Source: Halobacteriales archaeon QH_7_66_36 (GTDB lineage Archaea; Halobacteriota; Halobacteria; Halobacteriales; Haloarculaceae). From it: a stretch of DNA of 64,000 nt. The stretch spans positions 62,001-126,000 of the forward strand of contig PXQV01000014.1 of the NCBI GenBank assembly GCA_003021175.1, read 5' to 3'. Below the pieces are notes generated by a model that did no database searches, was not told the origin of the DNA, and saw only the letters and a program-made list of their open reading frames with translations. Position numbers and translations under genes: made by a program. Numbering within the stretch: the stretch's first letter is position 1; every line of letters begins with the position of its first letter. This document shows positions 8,181 through 31,915 of this stretch, in pieces.

Positions 8181-10208
8181 ATGGAGGCACGGGGGACAGA
8201 AACACTCGACAGGGCGGGGTACGCGCGGCTCCGGCGCGCCGGCGAGACCAACCGACAGCGGCTGCTGGTTCGGCTCTGTGGCGAGGTCGGACTCAGGCCG
8301 GCCGAGATTACCCGCATCCATCTGGAAGATGTCCGCGCGCACGTCCACGACGGCAACGTCCACTACTTCCTTTCTGTCCGGGCCGACGACGGGAGCCACG
8401 CTCGCGACGCGTATCTTCCGCGCGAGGTGAAGCGCGAACTCGACCGCTACGTCGAGAGCGAGGGGATCGACGACGCGGACCCGGTGTTCGACGTGAGTCC
8501 GCGCCGCCTCCAGATGCTCGTCGGCGAAACCGTTGAGCGGGCGGTCGCGGCCGGGGCGGAGTCGCTGCGCGGCGTCTCGACGGCCGACCTGCGCCGCTAC
8601 TGCGCTCGCGCACAACTCCGAGCGGGGGTGCCGCCGGCCGTCGTGATGGCCGTCGGCGGCTGGCCCCGACTGGAAGGATTCGCCGCCGCCCCCGACGAGG
8701 TGGGCGAGGGGACCGCCGCCGCGGCGTTCGCCCGCGTCGACGGCGACAGCGACGGTCGGCTCCGCGCCGCGTTCGACCGACTCGACCACCCCGCGCTCCT
8801 GCTCGACGACGGCGGCGGCGTCGAGCGCGTCAACGAGCGGTTCGCCGCCGCGACCGGTGTCGACTCCGAGACGGTCGTCGGTCGGGAGTTGCGTGACGTC
8901 GCCGCGCCCGTCGACACGCGCGGCTACATGGACGCGTGGGAGACGGCGCTGGCCGGGGAGACGTGGCGCGGCCCGGTCGTCTGTCGCGCCGCCGACGGTG
9001 ACCCCGTGGAAGGGGAACTCGCGCTCGCGGGCATTGGCGACCCGACGCGACCGGACGGGTTCGTGGCCGGGTTCCGGCCGGACGGCACCGACTTGCCGAC
9101 CGACCAGACCCGGTTTCCGGCGGTGCAGTCGCGGGTGCTCGCCGCGGGTGACGCGCTGGCCGGGGGCGCGACGCGTGACGGCATCCTCTCGCGGGCGTGT
9201 GACGCGCTCGTCGACGGTGACGCATACAGCAGGGCGTGGGCGTTCGACGCACCCGTCGAGGGGGCGACTCCGCTCGCCACCGCGGGCGACGCCGACCCAC
9301 CCGACAGCGTTTCCGCGCTCGCCACCGCCGCAATCGCAGACGGGGCTGTCACCAGCGGCGACCCCGAGCGCGACGACGCGCCGCTCGCGGTGCCGCTCTC
9401 GCACGGGGGCACTGACCACGGCGCGCTCGTGCTCGCGCCCACTGATGCGACGGACGCGCGTGAGCGTCGAGCGCTCGCCGGCCTCGGGGGACGGGTCGCC
9501 GGCACGCTCGCGGCTATCGAGTGGAAGCGACTCCTGCTGGCCGACGCCGTGCTCGAACTGGAGCTACAGCTCCGAGCGCCCGACGCCGGGTCGCTGTTCG
9601 CCACCGCCTCGGCCGAGTTGGGCTGTGAACTGACGCTGGAGGGACTCGTCCCGCTCGACGGCGACTCGCTGCTCTACTACGTCTCGGTCGGGGACGTGCC
9701 CGCAGAGGACGCGCTGACCTGCATCGAGCACGTCGCGGAGTCGGTGCGACTCGTCGCCGCAGCCAGCGACGCCTCGCTCTTGGAGGTGACCGCCGCCGGC
9801 GACTCGGTCCCCGGTGAACTCATCGCCCGCGGGGCGAACGTGAGCGAACTGACCGCGGCACAGGGCACAGTCGAGCTCACCTGTGAGACCGCGCCCAACG
9901 CCAACGTGCGGGAACTGGTCGAGGGCGTCCAGCAGAGCTACCCGGAGATACGGCTCGTCGCCAAGCGAGAGGTGGAGCGGTCGGTCCGCACGCCGACGGA
10001 GTTCCAGCAGGCGCTCGCAGAGCGACTCACCGACAAACAGCGCTCCGTGTTGCAGGCGGCGTACCACGCCGGCTACTTCGACTGGCCGCGCGGCTCGACG
10101 GCCGAGGAGTTGGCCGACTCTATCGGCGTCTCCTCCCCGACGCTCCACAACCATCTCCGTCGAGCACAGCGGAAACTGCTGGCCGCCTTCTTCGACGGCG
10201 AGGAGTGA
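8181..10208 (+). CDS. Bat-type regulator (recombinase-like, PAS, GAF, HTH_10)
   Basis: About 675 residues from ATG 8181; an in-frame ATG at 8157 would add eight. Residues 1-170 resemble the catalytic fold of tyrosine recombinases (RLCGEVGLRPAEITRIHLEDV, then TADLRRYCARAQLRAGVPPAVVMAVGGW), but the active-site tyrosine and the usual HxxR are not seen, so a binding role is likely. A PAS-like domain (about 195-300), a GAF-like domain (about 310-450), a bacterio-opsin-activator sensory part and a C-terminal HTH_10 (SVLQAAYHAGYFDWPRGSTAEELADS, then SSPTLHNHLRRAQRK) follow. It sits between two acs-family genes and probably regulates one or both; the signal is unknown. Confidence 0.85.
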   Translation: MEARGTETLDRAGYARLRRAGETNRQRLLVRLCGEVGLRPAEITRIHLEDVRAHVHDGNVHYFLSVRADDGSHARDAYLPREVKRELDRYVESEGIDDADPVFDVSPRRLQMLVGETVERAVAAGAESLRGVSTADLRRYCARAQLRAGVPPAVVMAVGGWPRLEGFAAAPDEVGEGTAAAAFARVDGDSDGRLRAAFDRLDHPALLLDDGGGVERVNERFAAATGVDSETVVGRELRDVAAPVDTRGYMDAWETALAGETWRGPVVCRAADGDPVEGELALAGIGDPTRPDGFVAGFRPDGTDLPTDQTRFPAVQSRVLAAGDALAGGATRDGILSRACDALVDGDAYSRAWAFDAPVEGATPLATAGDADPPDSVSALATAAIADGAVTSGDPERDDAPLAVPLSHGGTDHGALVLAPTDATDARERRALAGLGGRVAGTLAAIEWKRLLLADAVLELELQLRAPDAGSLFATASAELGCELTLEGLVPLDGDSLLYYVSVGDVPAEDALTCIEHVAESVRLVAAASDASLLEVTAAGDSVPGELIARGANVSELTAAQGTVELTCETAPNANVRELVEGVQQSYPEIRLVAKREVERSVRTPTEFQQALAERLTDKQRSVLQAAYHAGYFDWPRGSTAEELADSIGVSSPTLHNHLRRAQRKLLAAFFDGEE

Positions 10209-22170: not shown

Positions 22171-22352
22171 GTGTTCAGACAAGCGGGGCGTCACTCGGCT
22201 GCGTAACCGCGATGGATGAGACTGAAAGGGGCCGTTGACGGCGGCTTCGCCGCCGTCTGCTCGGGAGAGCGTCGCTCTCCCGGTGGGCGAGCGACCGGGG
22301 GCTTTCTACACCGCGTTACCCTCCTCGTATCCGGAGTCGCTCCTATCTAAAC
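22171..22352 (+). repeat. Structured intergenic repeat, copy A
   Basis: 182 bp. It begins GTGTTCAG and ends CTAAAC, with the 5' block reaching ACTGAAAGGGGCC at about 22221 and the 3' block starting GGGGGCTTTCTACACC at about 22297. Between them are two perfect hairpins, GACGGCGG-loop-CCGCCGTC and GGGAGAGC-loop-GCTCTCCC. It shares both blocks with copies at 25167, 30812, 49484 and 54312. It ends 24 bp before the TATA box of the phosphomevalonate decarboxylase gene. Confidence 0.75.
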
Positions 22353-25166: not shown

Positions 25167-25470
25167 TCGAATTAGGAGTGAATCCGGAGATCAAGGAGGC
25201 AACGAGGTGTAGAAAGCCCCCAGTCGGTACGGTCGCGCGGCTCGCTGTCGCCGGAAATCGGAGATTTCCGAGATGACGAGCGAGCGTCGCTCTCTCGGAC
25301 CACGCGCCTCGCCCGCCCGTCCGCCTCGCTGCTTACGTCGCCGTGCTTCCCGTACCGACCACCGGGAGAGCAGAGCTCTCCCGAGCAATCGGCGGCGAAG
25401 CCGCCGATAACGGCCCCTTTCAGTTCCACCCGACCGCATGTGCTCAGGCAACCGTCGCGTAGCTGAACAC
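25167..25470 (-). repeat. Structured intergenic repeat, copy B
   Basis: About 304 bp in reverse orientation, filling most of the 475-bp gap 25114-25588. Read on the minus strand it starts GTGTTCAG (25470 downward), passes ACTGAAAGGGGCC, hairpins of CGGCGGCTTCGCCGCCG and GGGAGAG-loop-CTCTCCC type, a block with GACGTAAGCAGCGAGG, a hairpin GGAAATCGGAGATTTCC, and then GGGGGCTTTCTACACCTCG. The outer end near 25167-25175 is less well conserved. The remaining 118 bp up to 25588 shows nothing further. Confidence 0.75.
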
Positions 25471-27113: not shown

Positions 27114-27902
27114 TCACTCCGGTCGCGGGCCGTCCGGCAGCGCCGTCGCATCGACGAGCGAGTCGGCCACCGCGTCGTGGTCGGGGAGATGCTCGCCCAG
27201 TCCAGCGGCCGTCGCGACGGTCGTCAGGAAGGTCGCCTCCCGACAGGGGAGGTCGGTGCGCGGGCCGCCGGCGCTCCCGTCGTGGTGTGCCAACACGCCC
27301 TCGATACCGCGGGCGACCGCCGCCAGGTCGCGCACGAGAATGCCCTCAATTGCCTCTGAACGGCCGCCGTACAGCGCCCGCTCCTCGTGTTCCGTCGTCG
27401 CGAAGAAGCCGGCGTTGGCGAGTCGGTTCACGGTCCCGGCGAACCGCTCGCCAGCCCGCTCCATCTCGCCAGCGTCGCCGAGCGCGCCGGCCGCGAGCGC
27501 GAGATAGTAGTCGCGGTGCAGCGCCGCTCGCTCGTCTAACTCCTTGAGGTCGGCTCGGTCGACTGCGCGTTTCAGCCCGCGGGCAAGGCCCGGTACGGCC
27601 TGTTTCGACCCCGCGAGCGTCGCGGCCCGGAGCGCGTAGTACCGCTCGTCGACCGGGTCGGTGCCGGCGTCGGCCGCGCCGGCGTGGAGTTCCATTGCGG
27701 TGTCGAACCAGCGCCGAGCCGTGTCGGGGTCGTCGCGCACCTTCACGAGGCCGGCGGCGGCTTTCTCGGCCAGTGTCGCCGTCGTGGCGCGGTAGTCGCC
27801 GAGTTCGTCGTCGGGGACGGCACCCGTGGCGAGCGCCTCGGTTCGGTCGTCGAGCGTCGCCAACTCGCCGTCGAGCCAGCCGAGCAGATCCGTCGTAGCC
27901 AT
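27114..27902 (-). CDS. Hypothetical helical haloarchaeal protein
   Basis: 262 residues, acidic, alanine-rich and soluble. It is predicted to be all-helical with repeat-like pairs (TTATLAEKAAAGLVKVRDDPDTARRWFDTAME, HRDYYLALAAGALGDAGEMERAGERFAGTV), suggesting a TPR-like scaffold. No signal peptide, cysteines or catalytic motif. It is upstream of the four-helix membrane gene on the same strand with a 43-nt gap. Confidence 0.72.
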   Translation of the reverse strand: MATTDLLGWLDGELATLDDRTEALATGAVPDDELGDYRATTATLAEKAAAGLVKVRDDPDTARRWFDTAMELHAGAADAGTDPVDERYYALRAATLAGSKQAVPGLARGLKRAVDRADLKELDERAALHRDYYLALAAGALGDAGEMERAGERFAGTVNRLANAGFFATTEHEERALYGGRSEAIEGILVRDLAAVARGIEGVLAHHDGSAGGPRTDLPCREATFLTTVATAAGLGEHLPDHDAVADSLVDATALPDGPRPE

Positions 27903-29382: not shown

Positions 29383-30483
29383 CTACGCGTAGACGTTAGT
29401 ATCGGGGGAGAAGCCGAGCCACGCGAACCACATCGCGTCGAACGTGTGAATCCTCGTGAGCGGCAGGGCGTCCGGGTTGTGCGAGAAGTCGCCGACCGAC
29501 ACCGTCTCACCCTCGACCGTGACCGTCCGCTCGTCGGGATTCAGATAGACGTAGCCCGTGTCCAGCCGCGGGTCGGCGACTGCGACGACCAGTGTCCCGC
29601 CCAGTTCGCCCGGCACGACCCGCTCTTCGAGGAGCCGAGACTTGTCGAAGGCGACCGCGCCGGCGGTGGTCCGGGCACCAATGAAGACGCGCCTCTCGCT
29701 GAATCGGTCGGCCTGTTCGAGCGTGTCGAACAGCGTCCCCTCGTTGTCGTAGTAGCCCGCGCGTGGATTGTACCCCCTCGTACGGGTCTCTGCCGTAGTT
29801 CTCTGCGAACTCTGTCTCCGTCGAGAGCACCTGCGTGTCGGGGTGGAGATCCCGCCACTGCTCCCACGTCGTCCACACGAGCCCGAACTCTCGCAGCGAC
29901 CTCGTGCCGGACCCCGGATTCCACGGCCCCGGTATCGACGTGGCGAGCATCTGGGGCCACCACGCCTCCGTCGCCCCGTCGTACATCACGAGATTGTTGT
30001 TGATCAGTCGGCCGGAGACGCCGAAGGTCGTCTCCCCGCGCTCGAACCCTTGGACGGTCCCGGTGAGCGGACAGTACGTCACCGTGACGGGGAGGTCGCC
30101 GAGGCTGTCGTTGACTATCTCGTGTTGGACGAGAATCTTCCGTGGATACGCCTTGACGGCGCCGTTCAGTGCGACGCCGAACACCGGATCGCCGGGGTCG
30201 AGGAAGTCGACGCCATCGGCCCCGACGAACGCCGGATCGTCGATAGAGGGGATACCGTCTTTCGGTGGGTCCCCCGAGACCGCGAGCGACTCGAAGTCGC
30301 CGGGCTCCCGCGACAGCGACAACACCTCGTCGGTCGTCGGAATCGGCGCGTCGGCGTCTCCGTGGCCGTCGCCGTATCGGTCGCGGTCGGGGTGTCCTCC
30401 GATCCGACGTTTGCGTCGCCCGCACACCCCGCGAGCGCACCGAGTCCGGCCGCCGCGACGAACTGGCGTCGAGTGAGCCGCAT
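29383..30483 (-). pseudogene. DUF3179 lipoprotein gene with two frameshifts
   Basis: The three pieces add up to a 366-residue DUF3179 protein. Piece 1 starts at ATG 30483 with a Tat-like signal and lipobox (RRQFVAAAGLGALAGC). Near 30347-30350, two extra bases (CGCG instead of CG) shift the frame. Piece 2 carries the DUF3179 core (DPAFVGADGVDFL, VSGRLINNNLVMYD, FGLVWTTWEQWRDLHPDT). At 29773-29777 a run of five C (GGGGG on the coding strand, where four restore YNPRAGYYDNEG) shifts it again. Piece 3 runs to the stop at 29383 (GELGGTLVVAVADPRLDTGYVY). The shifts are +2 and +1, so total length is a multiple of three. Either a decayed gene or sequencing errors. Confidence 0.75.
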
Positions 30484-30574
30484 TACCGCATAGGAGGGAG
30501 TACCGGGGATTAACACTTGAGCGAACGTGTGTACTGCTCACACATGCAGTGGAGTTCAGGAGAGGGACAGAGTG

Positions 30575-30597
30575 GCGAGCCCTGAGGGATTTGAACC
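30575..30597 (-). repeat. Partial tRNA-Arg 3' end duplicate, att-like
   Basis: A 23-bp exact copy of the tRNA 3' end (starting GCGAGCCCTGAGGGATTTGA on the plus strand), also found at 30681-30703. It lies 84 bp beyond the 3' end of the tRNA gene. The intervening 83 bp contain a hairpin (GTCAC-x-GTGAC type) and no gene. Such duplications are left by integrases that target tRNA 3' ends. Confidence 0.7.
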
Positions 30598-30681
30598 GGA
30601 GTCACGTCGCTCGCGCTGCTCGCTCGTGACAGGCTTCGATTCCCGTGTGCGTCGCTCCTGCTCACGTGCGTTCGCAGGAAG

Positions 30682-30756
30682 CGAGCCCTGAGGGATTTGA
30701 ACCCCCGACAACGTGGTCCGAAGCCACGCACTCTGTCCAGGCTGAGCTAAGGGCCC
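30682..30756 (-). tRNA. tRNA-Arg (anticodon TCG)
   Basis: 75 nt on the minus strand. The acceptor stem GGGCCCT pairs with AGGGCTC (one G-U), with discriminator G. The D arm contains TTAGCTCAGCCTGGACAG, the anticodon stem CGTGG/CCACG encloses loop CTTCGGA with anticodon TCG, and the T arm is GGGGGTTCAAATCCC. No intron and no encoded CCA. The 3' end is duplicated 84 bp downstream. Confidence 0.93.
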
Positions 30757-30811
30757 GCAACCATCTGTAGCGCGGTGTCCGTCAAAAGCCCTTCTATCGT
30801 CGGTCCCAGCG

Positions 30812-31008
30812 GTGTTCAGACACGCGGGGCGTCGCTTGGCCGAGCAACTGTGCTGGGTGGGGATGAAAGGAGCCGCGTGCTCGCCGAAGCCCGCCGACGT
30901 AAGCAGCGAGGGACCGCCGGTCCCTCGGGCCGCGAGCAGAAGGCGAGCGGGCGGAGGCTTTCTACACCTCGTCGGCCGGCTCGTCTCCGAAGCCACTCTT
31001 AGCTGAAC
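30812..31008 (+). repeat. Structured intergenic repeat, copy C
   Basis: 197 bp within the 307-bp gap between the tRNA and the prenyltransferase gene. It starts GTGTTCAG (30812) and ends CTGAAC (31003-31008), which are inverse complements over six bases. The 5' block carries GATGAAAGGAGCC (about 30863), the core has GACGTAAGCAGCGAGGG and hairpin GGGACC-loop-GGTCCC, and the 3' block begins GGAGGCTTTCTACACCTCG (about 30953). The ends are the best-matched pair of all copies. Confidence 0.75.
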
Positions 31009-31063
31009 GCCGTCTCGGTCTCCGACCGACGCGTTCAAGCCAGCGCCGCCGCACGCGGGGTGC

Positions 31064-31915
31064 ATGGAGCGTCCACGCGGGTTGCTCGAACTCACCCGGC
31101 CCGGCAACGCGGTCGTCGCCGGCATCCTGACCGGGATCGGTGCGTTCGTGGCCGGTGCCGGCGACGTCGCCGCCCTGTTCGTGGACACGTCGCCGACGGT
31201 GCGTGCGGCCGCGGCCGTGCTCGCGACCGTCTTCGCCGTCGGGGCCGGCAACGCCATCAACGACTACTTCGACCGCGAGATCGACCGCGTCAACCGCCCG
31301 GGCAGACCCATCCCGCGGGGGGCCGTCTCGCCGCGTGTCGCGCTCGCGTTCGCGGTCGTGTTGTTCCTCGTCGCGACCGGACTGGCGCTCGTCCTGCCGG
31401 CGCTCGCGGTCGGCATCGCGGCGTTCAACCTCGCGGCACTGGTCGCGTACACGGAGCTGTTCAAGGGGCTTCCCGGCGTCGGAAACGTCGTCGTCGCGTA
31501 TCTCGGCGGGTCGACGTTTCTCTTCGGTGGCGCGGCGGTCGGCGGCGCGCTCGGCCCGGTCGTCGTGCTCGCGGCGCTGGCGGCGCTCGCGACGTTCGCC
31601 CGAGAGGTGGTCAAGGACGTGGAGGACATCGCCGGCGACCGCGAGGAAGGACTCTCGACGCTTCCCATCGCCGTCGGCGAGCAGACCGCGCTCCGGGTGG
31701 CCGCGGGCGCACTCGTCGCCGGCGTGCTCGCCAGTCCGGCCCCGTATCTGCTCGCCGGCTTCGGCCCGGCGTATCTGGTCGCCGTCGCAGTAGCCGACGT
31801 GGTGATGCTGGCGGCCGGCTACCGGAGTTTCGCCGACGCGAGTCGCGGACAGGCGTGGCTGAAGTACGGCCAGCTCCTCGCGGCGGGTGCGTTCGTTCTG
31901 GGCCGAATCGCGTGA
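31064..31915 (+). CDS. Geranylgeranylglycerol-phosphate geranylgeranyltransferase (UbiA family)
   Basis: 283 residues with about eight membrane helices. The two aspartate-rich motifs of UbiA prenyltransferases are present: NAINDYFDREIDRVNRPGRPIPRG near residue 65 and KDVEDIAGDREEGLSTLP near 185. The haloarchaeal single-copy protein of this type adds the second geranylgeranyl chain to geranylgeranylglyceryl phosphate in archaeol lipid synthesis, acting in the membrane. Other UbiA roles (quinone, chlorophyll-like) are less likely given the archaeal context and the N-terminal LLELTRPGNAVVAG. No other lipid gene is adjacent. Confidence 0.85.
   Translation: MERPRGLLELTRPGNAVVAGILTGIGAFVAGAGDVAALFVDTSPTVRAAAAVLATVFAVGAGNAINDYFDREIDRVNRPGRPIPRGAVSPRVALAFAVVLFLVATGLALVLPALAVGIAAFNLAALVAYTELFKGLPGVGNVVVAYLGGSTFLFGGAAVGGALGPVVVLAALAALATFAREVVKDVEDIAGDREEGLSTLPIAVGEQTALRVAAGALVAGVLASPAPYLLAGFGPAYLVAVAVADVVMLAAGYRSFADASRGQAWLKYGQLLAAGAFVLGRIA

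Follow-up and report, generated by a model that had tools for sequence, protein, structure and literature searches.

A tRNA gene that is followed at a short distance by a second copy of its own 3′ end raises the question of how the copy came to be there, and of what the DNA between the two copies is. We examined such a case in a 64,000-nucleotide stretch (the window; 67% G+C) located on contig C9 of a 2.6-Mb haloarchaeal draft genome, G000; in the window ARAGORN finds a sole tRNA gene, tRNA-Arg(TCG). The 23-mer GCGAGCCCTGAGGGATTTGAACC occurs exactly at both T1 and T2 (Table 1), 106 bp apart from start to start with an interval of 83 bp, and a 24-mer overlapping the repeat (30677–30700) matches no place in the window but these two when up to five substitutions are allowed on both strands. 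A sequence-only reading of the window had seen in this the typical trace of a tRNA-targeting integrase, and in the interval either the scar of a lost element or one att site of a larger one. Its description of the site is borne out: the exact copy lies downstream of the tRNA gene, the recurrence of own-tail copies behind tRNA genes is far above chance in the genome-wide controls given below, and the open reading frames across the interval are mechanical listings, none of which bears any mark of a gene.

Table 1. Parts of the repeat-bordered unit behind tRNA-Arg(TCG), with positions in the window.
Feature	Position	Strand	Basis
tRNA-Arg(TCG) gene, host of the unit	30682–30756 (Rfam), 30681–30756 (ARAGORN)	−	Rfam tRNA, 57.9 bits
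T1, the copied sequence (own T-loop half, acceptor 3′ strand and one base)	30681–30703	−	repeat search
hp5, first hairpin (TTCCTGC..GCAGGAG), abutting the tRNA	30655–30680	−	predicted fold
antiT, the T-loop half copied imperfectly in inverted orientation (GGGAATCGAAGCC)	30632–30644	−	predicted fold
hp2, capping hairpin with a perfect outer stem (GTCACG/CGTGAC)	30601–30630	−	predicted fold and family covariation
TCC separating hp2 from the tail copy	30598–30600	−	sequence
T2, exact 23-bp copy of T1	30575–30597	−	pairs with antiT in the predicted fold

Along the tRNA strand the parts follow in the order T1, hp5, antiT, hp2 and T2, and in the predicted fold antiT and T2 pair while hp2 forms the cap. 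Hairpins resembling hp5 also occur downstream of other unit-bearing tRNAs. The window unit folds no better than shuffled sequence (z = −0.38), so that our case rests on comparison between units, and single-sequence folding is not counted as evidence.

The arrangement recurs throughout the genome. In G000, 13 of 43 tRNA genes (Arg-CCG, Lys-CTT, Val-TAC, Ala-CGC, Arg-CCT, Ser-GGA, Glu-CTC, Asp, Pro-TGG, Arg-TCG, Ser-CGA, Leu-CAA and Leu-TAG) are followed within 300 bp by an exact copy (15–34 nt) of their own 3′ end. With a looser rule, which accepts up to 4 mismatches of 21 in the 500 bp behind the gene and leaves out copies inside another predicted tRNA, near-copies stand behind 78 of 223 tRNAs of five haloarchaeal genomes taken together, namely 12/43 in G000, 7/42 in G005 of the same genus, 21/43 in G094, 19/52 in Haloferax prahovense (G417) and 19/43 in Haloarcula rara (G418). 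Leaving out tail copies inside the second gene of a tandem is what makes this count 78 rather than 81, and it drops 15 of 332 units, keeping 317. A control in the 300 bp upstream of each tRNA, by the looser rule with tandem tRNAs included, gave 0, 0, 1, 4 and 0 copies in G000, G005, G094, G417 and G418; in the cross-tRNA control the tail of a different tRNA stood downstream in 0.4–1% of pairs over the five genomes, and in G000 in 10 of 1,676 (0.6%).

The median distance from the tRNA to the start of the first tail copy is 104.5 bp, two or three copies follow 25 of the tRNAs in arrays of up to three units, and 90% of the 317 units have an interior of 74–183 bp (median 103; spans above 400 bp were not counted as units). 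The copied part is the last 20–22 bp of the host, at near-constant positions of the tRNA, and there is a short form in which only the last 14–15 nt are copied, behind a different hairpin. At 100 haloarchaeal loci followed for up to 8 kb, 124 free tail copies lie at most 500 bp away and 4 farther out, those located in other tRNA genes being left out; with distant copies this rare, gene-bearing cassettes are not seen.

Both the direct and the inverted copy follow the host. An antiT scoring at least 8 of 12 is present in 291 of the 317 units. At the variable T-loop base, which could be tracked in 256 of the 317, T1 equals T2 in 248 units and antiT is Watson–Crick complementary to T2 in 240. Beyond the universal part of the T-loop, antiT–T2 complementarity averages 2.93 of 6 against 2.72 in shuffled pairings (sd 0.05), a slight excess computed on the unit set that includes copies in tandem tRNA genes. 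The interiors, by comparison, are shared between hosts: among pairs of units with at least 80% identity over at least 55 nt, 378 join different anticodons (343 of them different amino acids) and 124 the same one, although weak pairs among the 378 may be inflated by GA-rich hairpins. In G094, the entire 75-nt interior of the Lys-TTT unit matches the Arg-CCG unit at 93% identity, whereas the tail copies and antiT extensions of the two units differ, each matching its own host; in the same genome Leu-TAG and Leu-GAG have another unit in common (95% over 103 nt), and Val-GAC carries a related one. Thus the direct and inverted copies are shown to track the host tRNA, and hp5 and hp2 to belong to families common to different tRNA genes.

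Comparison with the closest relative, G001 (67% complete), showed both shared and variable sites. The Pro-TGG, Val-TAC and Leu-CAA units are common to the two genomes and look vertically inherited. At Arg-CCG, G001 has a clean empty site, with one tail followed by the flank that follows the short-form copy in G000; at Ser-CGA, two full units of G000 are missing and a short tail copy is left; and G001 lacks any copy behind Leu-TAG, where G000 has some. Conversely, G001 carries one extra unit adjoining tRNA-Lys(CTT) and an extra distal short-form unit at Arg-TCG. The units are therefore inherited, yet at the variable sites also either gained or lost. The sequence-only reading had treated an arrangement fixed in all relatives, with no element at the site, as decisive against it; instead, a tail copy is present at 10 of 28 tRNA-Arg(TCG) loci of relatives, and beyond these ten one locus (L051) carries decayed tail copies. 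Within arrays we detected no preferred side of insertion, the proximal copy being closer to T1 in 12 arrays and the distal one in 6, with 7 ties (p = 0.24).

An antiT/T2 pattern (GATTYGAACC-N20-50-GGTTCRAATC) allowed a wider survey. Matches came from 58 of 81 genomes of Halobacteriales and from 0 of 311 genomes elsewhere in the phylum (genome numbers from a manual count of rows), and since the pattern requires a perfect antiT/T2 core it undercounts units; a reversed control pattern had no match in the same genome search. A same-strand tRNA lies within 500 bp upstream at 29 of 30 pattern loci and a matching tail is present at 25 of them, and 40 further places gave 37 and 34, respectively. Among the matches listed for named genomes, 119 genome-contig loci could be sorted by name into 100 haloarchaeal and 19 other loci: 92 of the former have an upstream tRNA and 81 a matching tail, against 3 and 2 of the latter. 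In the named collections, too, records with the same architecture are mostly haloarchaeal among the matches listed. Eight haloarchaeal loci had no detected tRNA: two are at contig ends (L127, L143) and one at the end of the stretch (L138), one has a tRNA-Ser missed by the program (L199), one has no trace of a tRNA (L195), and three carry tRNA 3′ fragments instead of a whole tRNA (L205, L231 and, as a short piece, L232).

As separate observations, L205 and L231, and also L232 and L100, combine tRNA 3′ halves or shorter pieces with a unit and have no tRNA body; such pieces might mark the distal edge of an element that integrated into a unit-bearing tRNA. Two non-haloarchaeal loci, one of Woesearchaeota SURF_65 (L155, tRNA-Ser) and one of a Lachnospiraceae MAG (L124, tRNA-Ala), have the parts in the same succession, the tRNA being followed by an antiT-type hairpin and a matching tail copy.

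The capping hairpin bears on which molecule folds. Among 35 aligned 67-mers, hand-chosen from 51 by leaving out antisense ones, near duplicates and others, covariation in hp2 is strong, a result that holds for the chosen subset: the paired fraction of cells is 93.5% (80.5% in shuffles), and both sides have changed in 100 cells (34 in shuffles). Pair types, taken from 232 of 273 spacers, comprise 29 GT/TG and 22 AC/CA pairs, whereas the distinct tRNA acceptor stems of the same genomes have 28 and 1 (Fisher p = 8e-5). In 179 of the 232 spacers the helix has a one-base offset on its 3′ side, and mismatches are common (T-T 120, G-A 116), those of the T-T type being concentrated at a single position. 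GNA triloops closed by GC or AC pairs are present on the sense strand in 167 of 273 spacers and on the antisense strand in 7; tandem GA is found 140 times on the sense strand and twice on the antisense strand, and UUCG tips in 0 of 240. GNA triloops are especially stable in DNA. Because hp2 lacks the G-U wobble of tRNA stems and its GNA loops lie almost wholly on one strand, the sequence pattern suggests that the unit folds as one DNA strand.

Our preferred reading, to which we give slightly less than even confidence, is that these are gene-less hairpin-type units of Halobacteria that may move to tRNA 3′ ends and duplicate them. A unit would be recognised as a folded single DNA strand in the tRNA sense, as attC sites or IS200/IS605 ends are, and the conserved T-loop GGTTCRAATCC would be the docking site. 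Insertion would copy or duplicate the last 20–22 bp of the host (14–15 bp in the short form), and because the host tail is copied in this model, the tRNA would stay intact; units might be lost via their tail repeats, and the enzyme would be supplied in trans. Weighing against this reading, no transposase or recombinase could be linked to the units, some units look vertically inherited, the antiT–T2 helix has a sense-strand wobble excess over its whole length, the window unit folds no better than shuffled sequence, insertion polarity in arrays is not significant, and two non-haloarchaeal loci have the same build. IS200/IS605-type enzymes, moreover, are not known to make a 20–22 bp duplication. 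Speculatively, one possible route to host tails on both arms would be for the palindrome's 3′ ends, both GGTTCAAATCC, to prime on the T-arm and then copy the host tail. The most far-reaching version, which we advance only tentatively and consider rather doubtful, is that of a lineage-wide system in Halobacteria with no described relative, in which an as-yet undescribed enzyme would insert a folded single strand behind tRNAs and write the tail in both orientations, giving a gene-less, tRNA-anchored array able to grow beside the tRNA.

If the preferred reading holds, between 7 of 42 and 21 of 43 tRNA genes per surveyed haloarchaeal genome, a Haloferax and a Haloarcula included, precede a structured, apparently mobile unit. 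Such units would offer a tractable system for folded single-stranded DNA insertion and for bidirectional copying of host sequence at a junction, and with many natural insertions and empty sites for comparison they would bear on why tRNA genes attract mobile DNA.

Several of the observations above would also be expected of a cellular RNA element, in which the transcript of the tRNA runs on through the unit and the hairpin that sequesters the tail copy has a role in 3′ processing of the tRNA, in turnover or in regulation. The units lie on the tRNA-sense strand behind the gene, the strong covariation and the conserved T-T mismatch of hp2 fit a folded RNA, A>G substitutions in antiT exceed T>C (38 against 12), and certain units are kept between species. 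In a test of ten units as RNA some folded well (z = −5.5, −4.5 and −3.3), with four below −1.5 and six above. Over the whole antiT–T2 helix, wobble changes that fit the sense strand outnumber the others by 75 to 37, leaving room for pairing as RNA; in the helix core (positions 2–8, counted manually) they number 19 against 18 and show no excess. Against such an element, hp2 has no G-U wobble excess, unlike the tRNA stems of the same genomes, its tips are mostly one-strand GNA triloops and never UUCG, most tRNAs have no unit, and units turn over within a genus. Nor did any unit searched match an Rfam family: searching window positions 30300–31100 with Rfam 15 at a relaxed threshold returned the tRNA and one sub-threshold match on that same tRNA, and seven other loci at the gathering threshold returned tRNAs with, elsewhere, one SRP RNA and one L4 leader, with no match on a unit in either search. 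On balance we regard an RNA function as unlikely.

We consider it similarly improbable that the units are products of replication alone, arising where forks stalled at tRNAs switch template twice and so leave direct, inverted and direct tail copies with no dedicated enzyme; hairpins would aid the switch, and gene conversion and palindrome correction would keep tails and arms alike. That direct and inverted copies both track the host tRNA agrees with such a process, as do the nearly strict Watson–Crick arms of hp2, which templated correction predicts, and loss via short direct repeats has been reported in a haloarchaeon (PMC3119063). The hairpins themselves speak against it: hp5 and hp2 form families across tRNAs and species rather than reflecting local sequence, T-T and G-A mismatches recur at set places although palindrome correction should erase them, and the copied part keeps to near-constant tRNA positions.

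The integrase scar proposed by the sequence-only reading is a far weaker candidate than either. Archaeal integrases often target tRNA genes (PMC8371274), partial copies of the tRNA remain after integration (PMC9897764), and a direct repeat of the tRNA 3′ end is present here. However, no integrase match lies within 20 kb of tRNA-Arg, and neither an integrase nor a remnant of one lies in the 83-bp interval. The nearest PF00589 match is 22 kb away (window 8250–8672); it is weak (30.2 bits, cut-off 27.1) and sits inside an open frame of 687 aa. Over the five genomes we obtained 33 PF00589 integrase rows, 31 of them over the cut-off; a few are close to tRNA genes, and one (G094:C1:1220286) lies roughly 0.5 kb away from a unit. 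Neither the plasmid nor the phage collection contained a blastn match to the window unit (121 bases), and of 12 pattern matches on viral contigs 2 have a tRNA within 500 bp and 0 a tail copy. An ordinary att repeat of a tyrosine-integrase element also sits poorly with tail copies concentrated within 500 bp and with the recurrence of one architecture behind tRNAs of many kinds; the interval is a structured unit in its own right, and the scar or single att site of something larger is unsupported. What stands of the integrase interpretation is that the tRNA 3′ end is duplicated, that the site varies in relatives and that something mobile-like is at work, and the search it suggested for the same repeat across the genome and relatives found tail copies widespread behind tRNAs; the att scar of an integrase element, and an integrase beside this tRNA, do not. 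Displacement of terminators was rejected, as T4/T5 runs behind unit-bearing and unit-less tRNAs were inconsistent, and so was a guide-RNA or T-box-like role, which was weighed by eye and has no Rfam match on a unit.

Elsewhere in G000 there is perhaps a more conventional integrase site: an integrase match (C15:253085–253564) lies about 0.8 kb from a tRNA-Thr(GGT) that lacks a tail copy.

The preferred reading of a mobile hairpin unit invites comparison with known systems, and none of the described families that we tested (att scar, integron/attC, PATE, SMR, Rfam RNAs) fits the units; in open PubMed Central text, judged by titles and the starts of abstracts among the matches listed, no such units are described. 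Integron attC sites are imperfect palindromes of variable sequence and conserved structure, with one preferred strand and unpaired spacer bases. The units likewise have a hairpin of variable sequence, conserved structure and one strand. Unlike integron cassettes, which carry genes, they are seen gene-less, are anchored on tRNA genes and take their direct repeat of 14–23 bp from the host tRNA. Their core, GGTTC..GAACC, appears to differ from the canonical attC core, and the PF00589 matches form a mixed set in which any IntI-type enzymes are pooled with the rest. Casposons target the 3′ ends of tRNA genes and duplicate about 14–15 bp there, the size of the short form; however, they are kilobase elements coding Cas1, and the units are too short to encode it. 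Arrays with units separated by direct repeats are a further likeness to integrons, as described for archaeal integrons in PMC9668308, whose main text has no word beginning with 'halobact' or 'haloarch'.

Two further families are described from Haloquadratum. PMC3119063 describes PATEs as palindrome-associated transposable elements related to IS605; they resemble the units in being haloarchaeal, in being too short for a transposase gene and in having palindromes near both ends, as hp5 and hp2 are, but lack the target duplication, whereas each unit lies at a tRNA gene and is bordered by 14–23 bp copied from the end of its host tRNA. The small mobile repeats (SMRs) of the same source are likewise about 80–110 bp long and gene-less, with unexplained mobilisation; they have terminal inverted repeats, and they differ in mostly targeting PATEs and IS605 elements and in the lack of a target duplication, a trait that the units do not share. 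Partial tRNA copies near a complete tRNA gene are also known from integrated elements, where, according to PMC9897764, some 9–23 kb of integrated DNA takes the place of the structured unit of about 100 bp seen here.

Three minor observations accompany these results. The copy behind tRNA-Leu(CAA) (G000:C8:78045–78128, L037) is a special case, a longer remnant that has no usual antiT and consists of an anticodon-arm copy, hairpins replacing the variable arm, an exact copy of the T-arm and acceptor and then a repeated trailer; it is present in G000, G005 (L407), G001 and G418 (L424), is built differently in G094 (L415) and is absent from the Haloferax genome G417. Near-perfect palindromes of a tRNA-like stretch (CCAGAGG..GGTTCAAATC), with no upstream tRNA, occur on viral contigs of IMG/VR (L111, L112, L114, L116, L118, L119) and in Bifidobacterium (L140, L141), and may be att-type palindromes of another system. 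Finally, TAGAAAGCCNCCG is enriched in the window, with 11 matches at up to 2 mismatches against 3.4 expected, including copies at 22296–22308(−), 25210–25222(+), 27755–27767(−) and 30952–30964(−); one copy lies just upstream of tRNA-Arg, similar stretches lie behind tRNA-Lys(TTT) in G000 and G001, and the sequence is perhaps a separate repeat.
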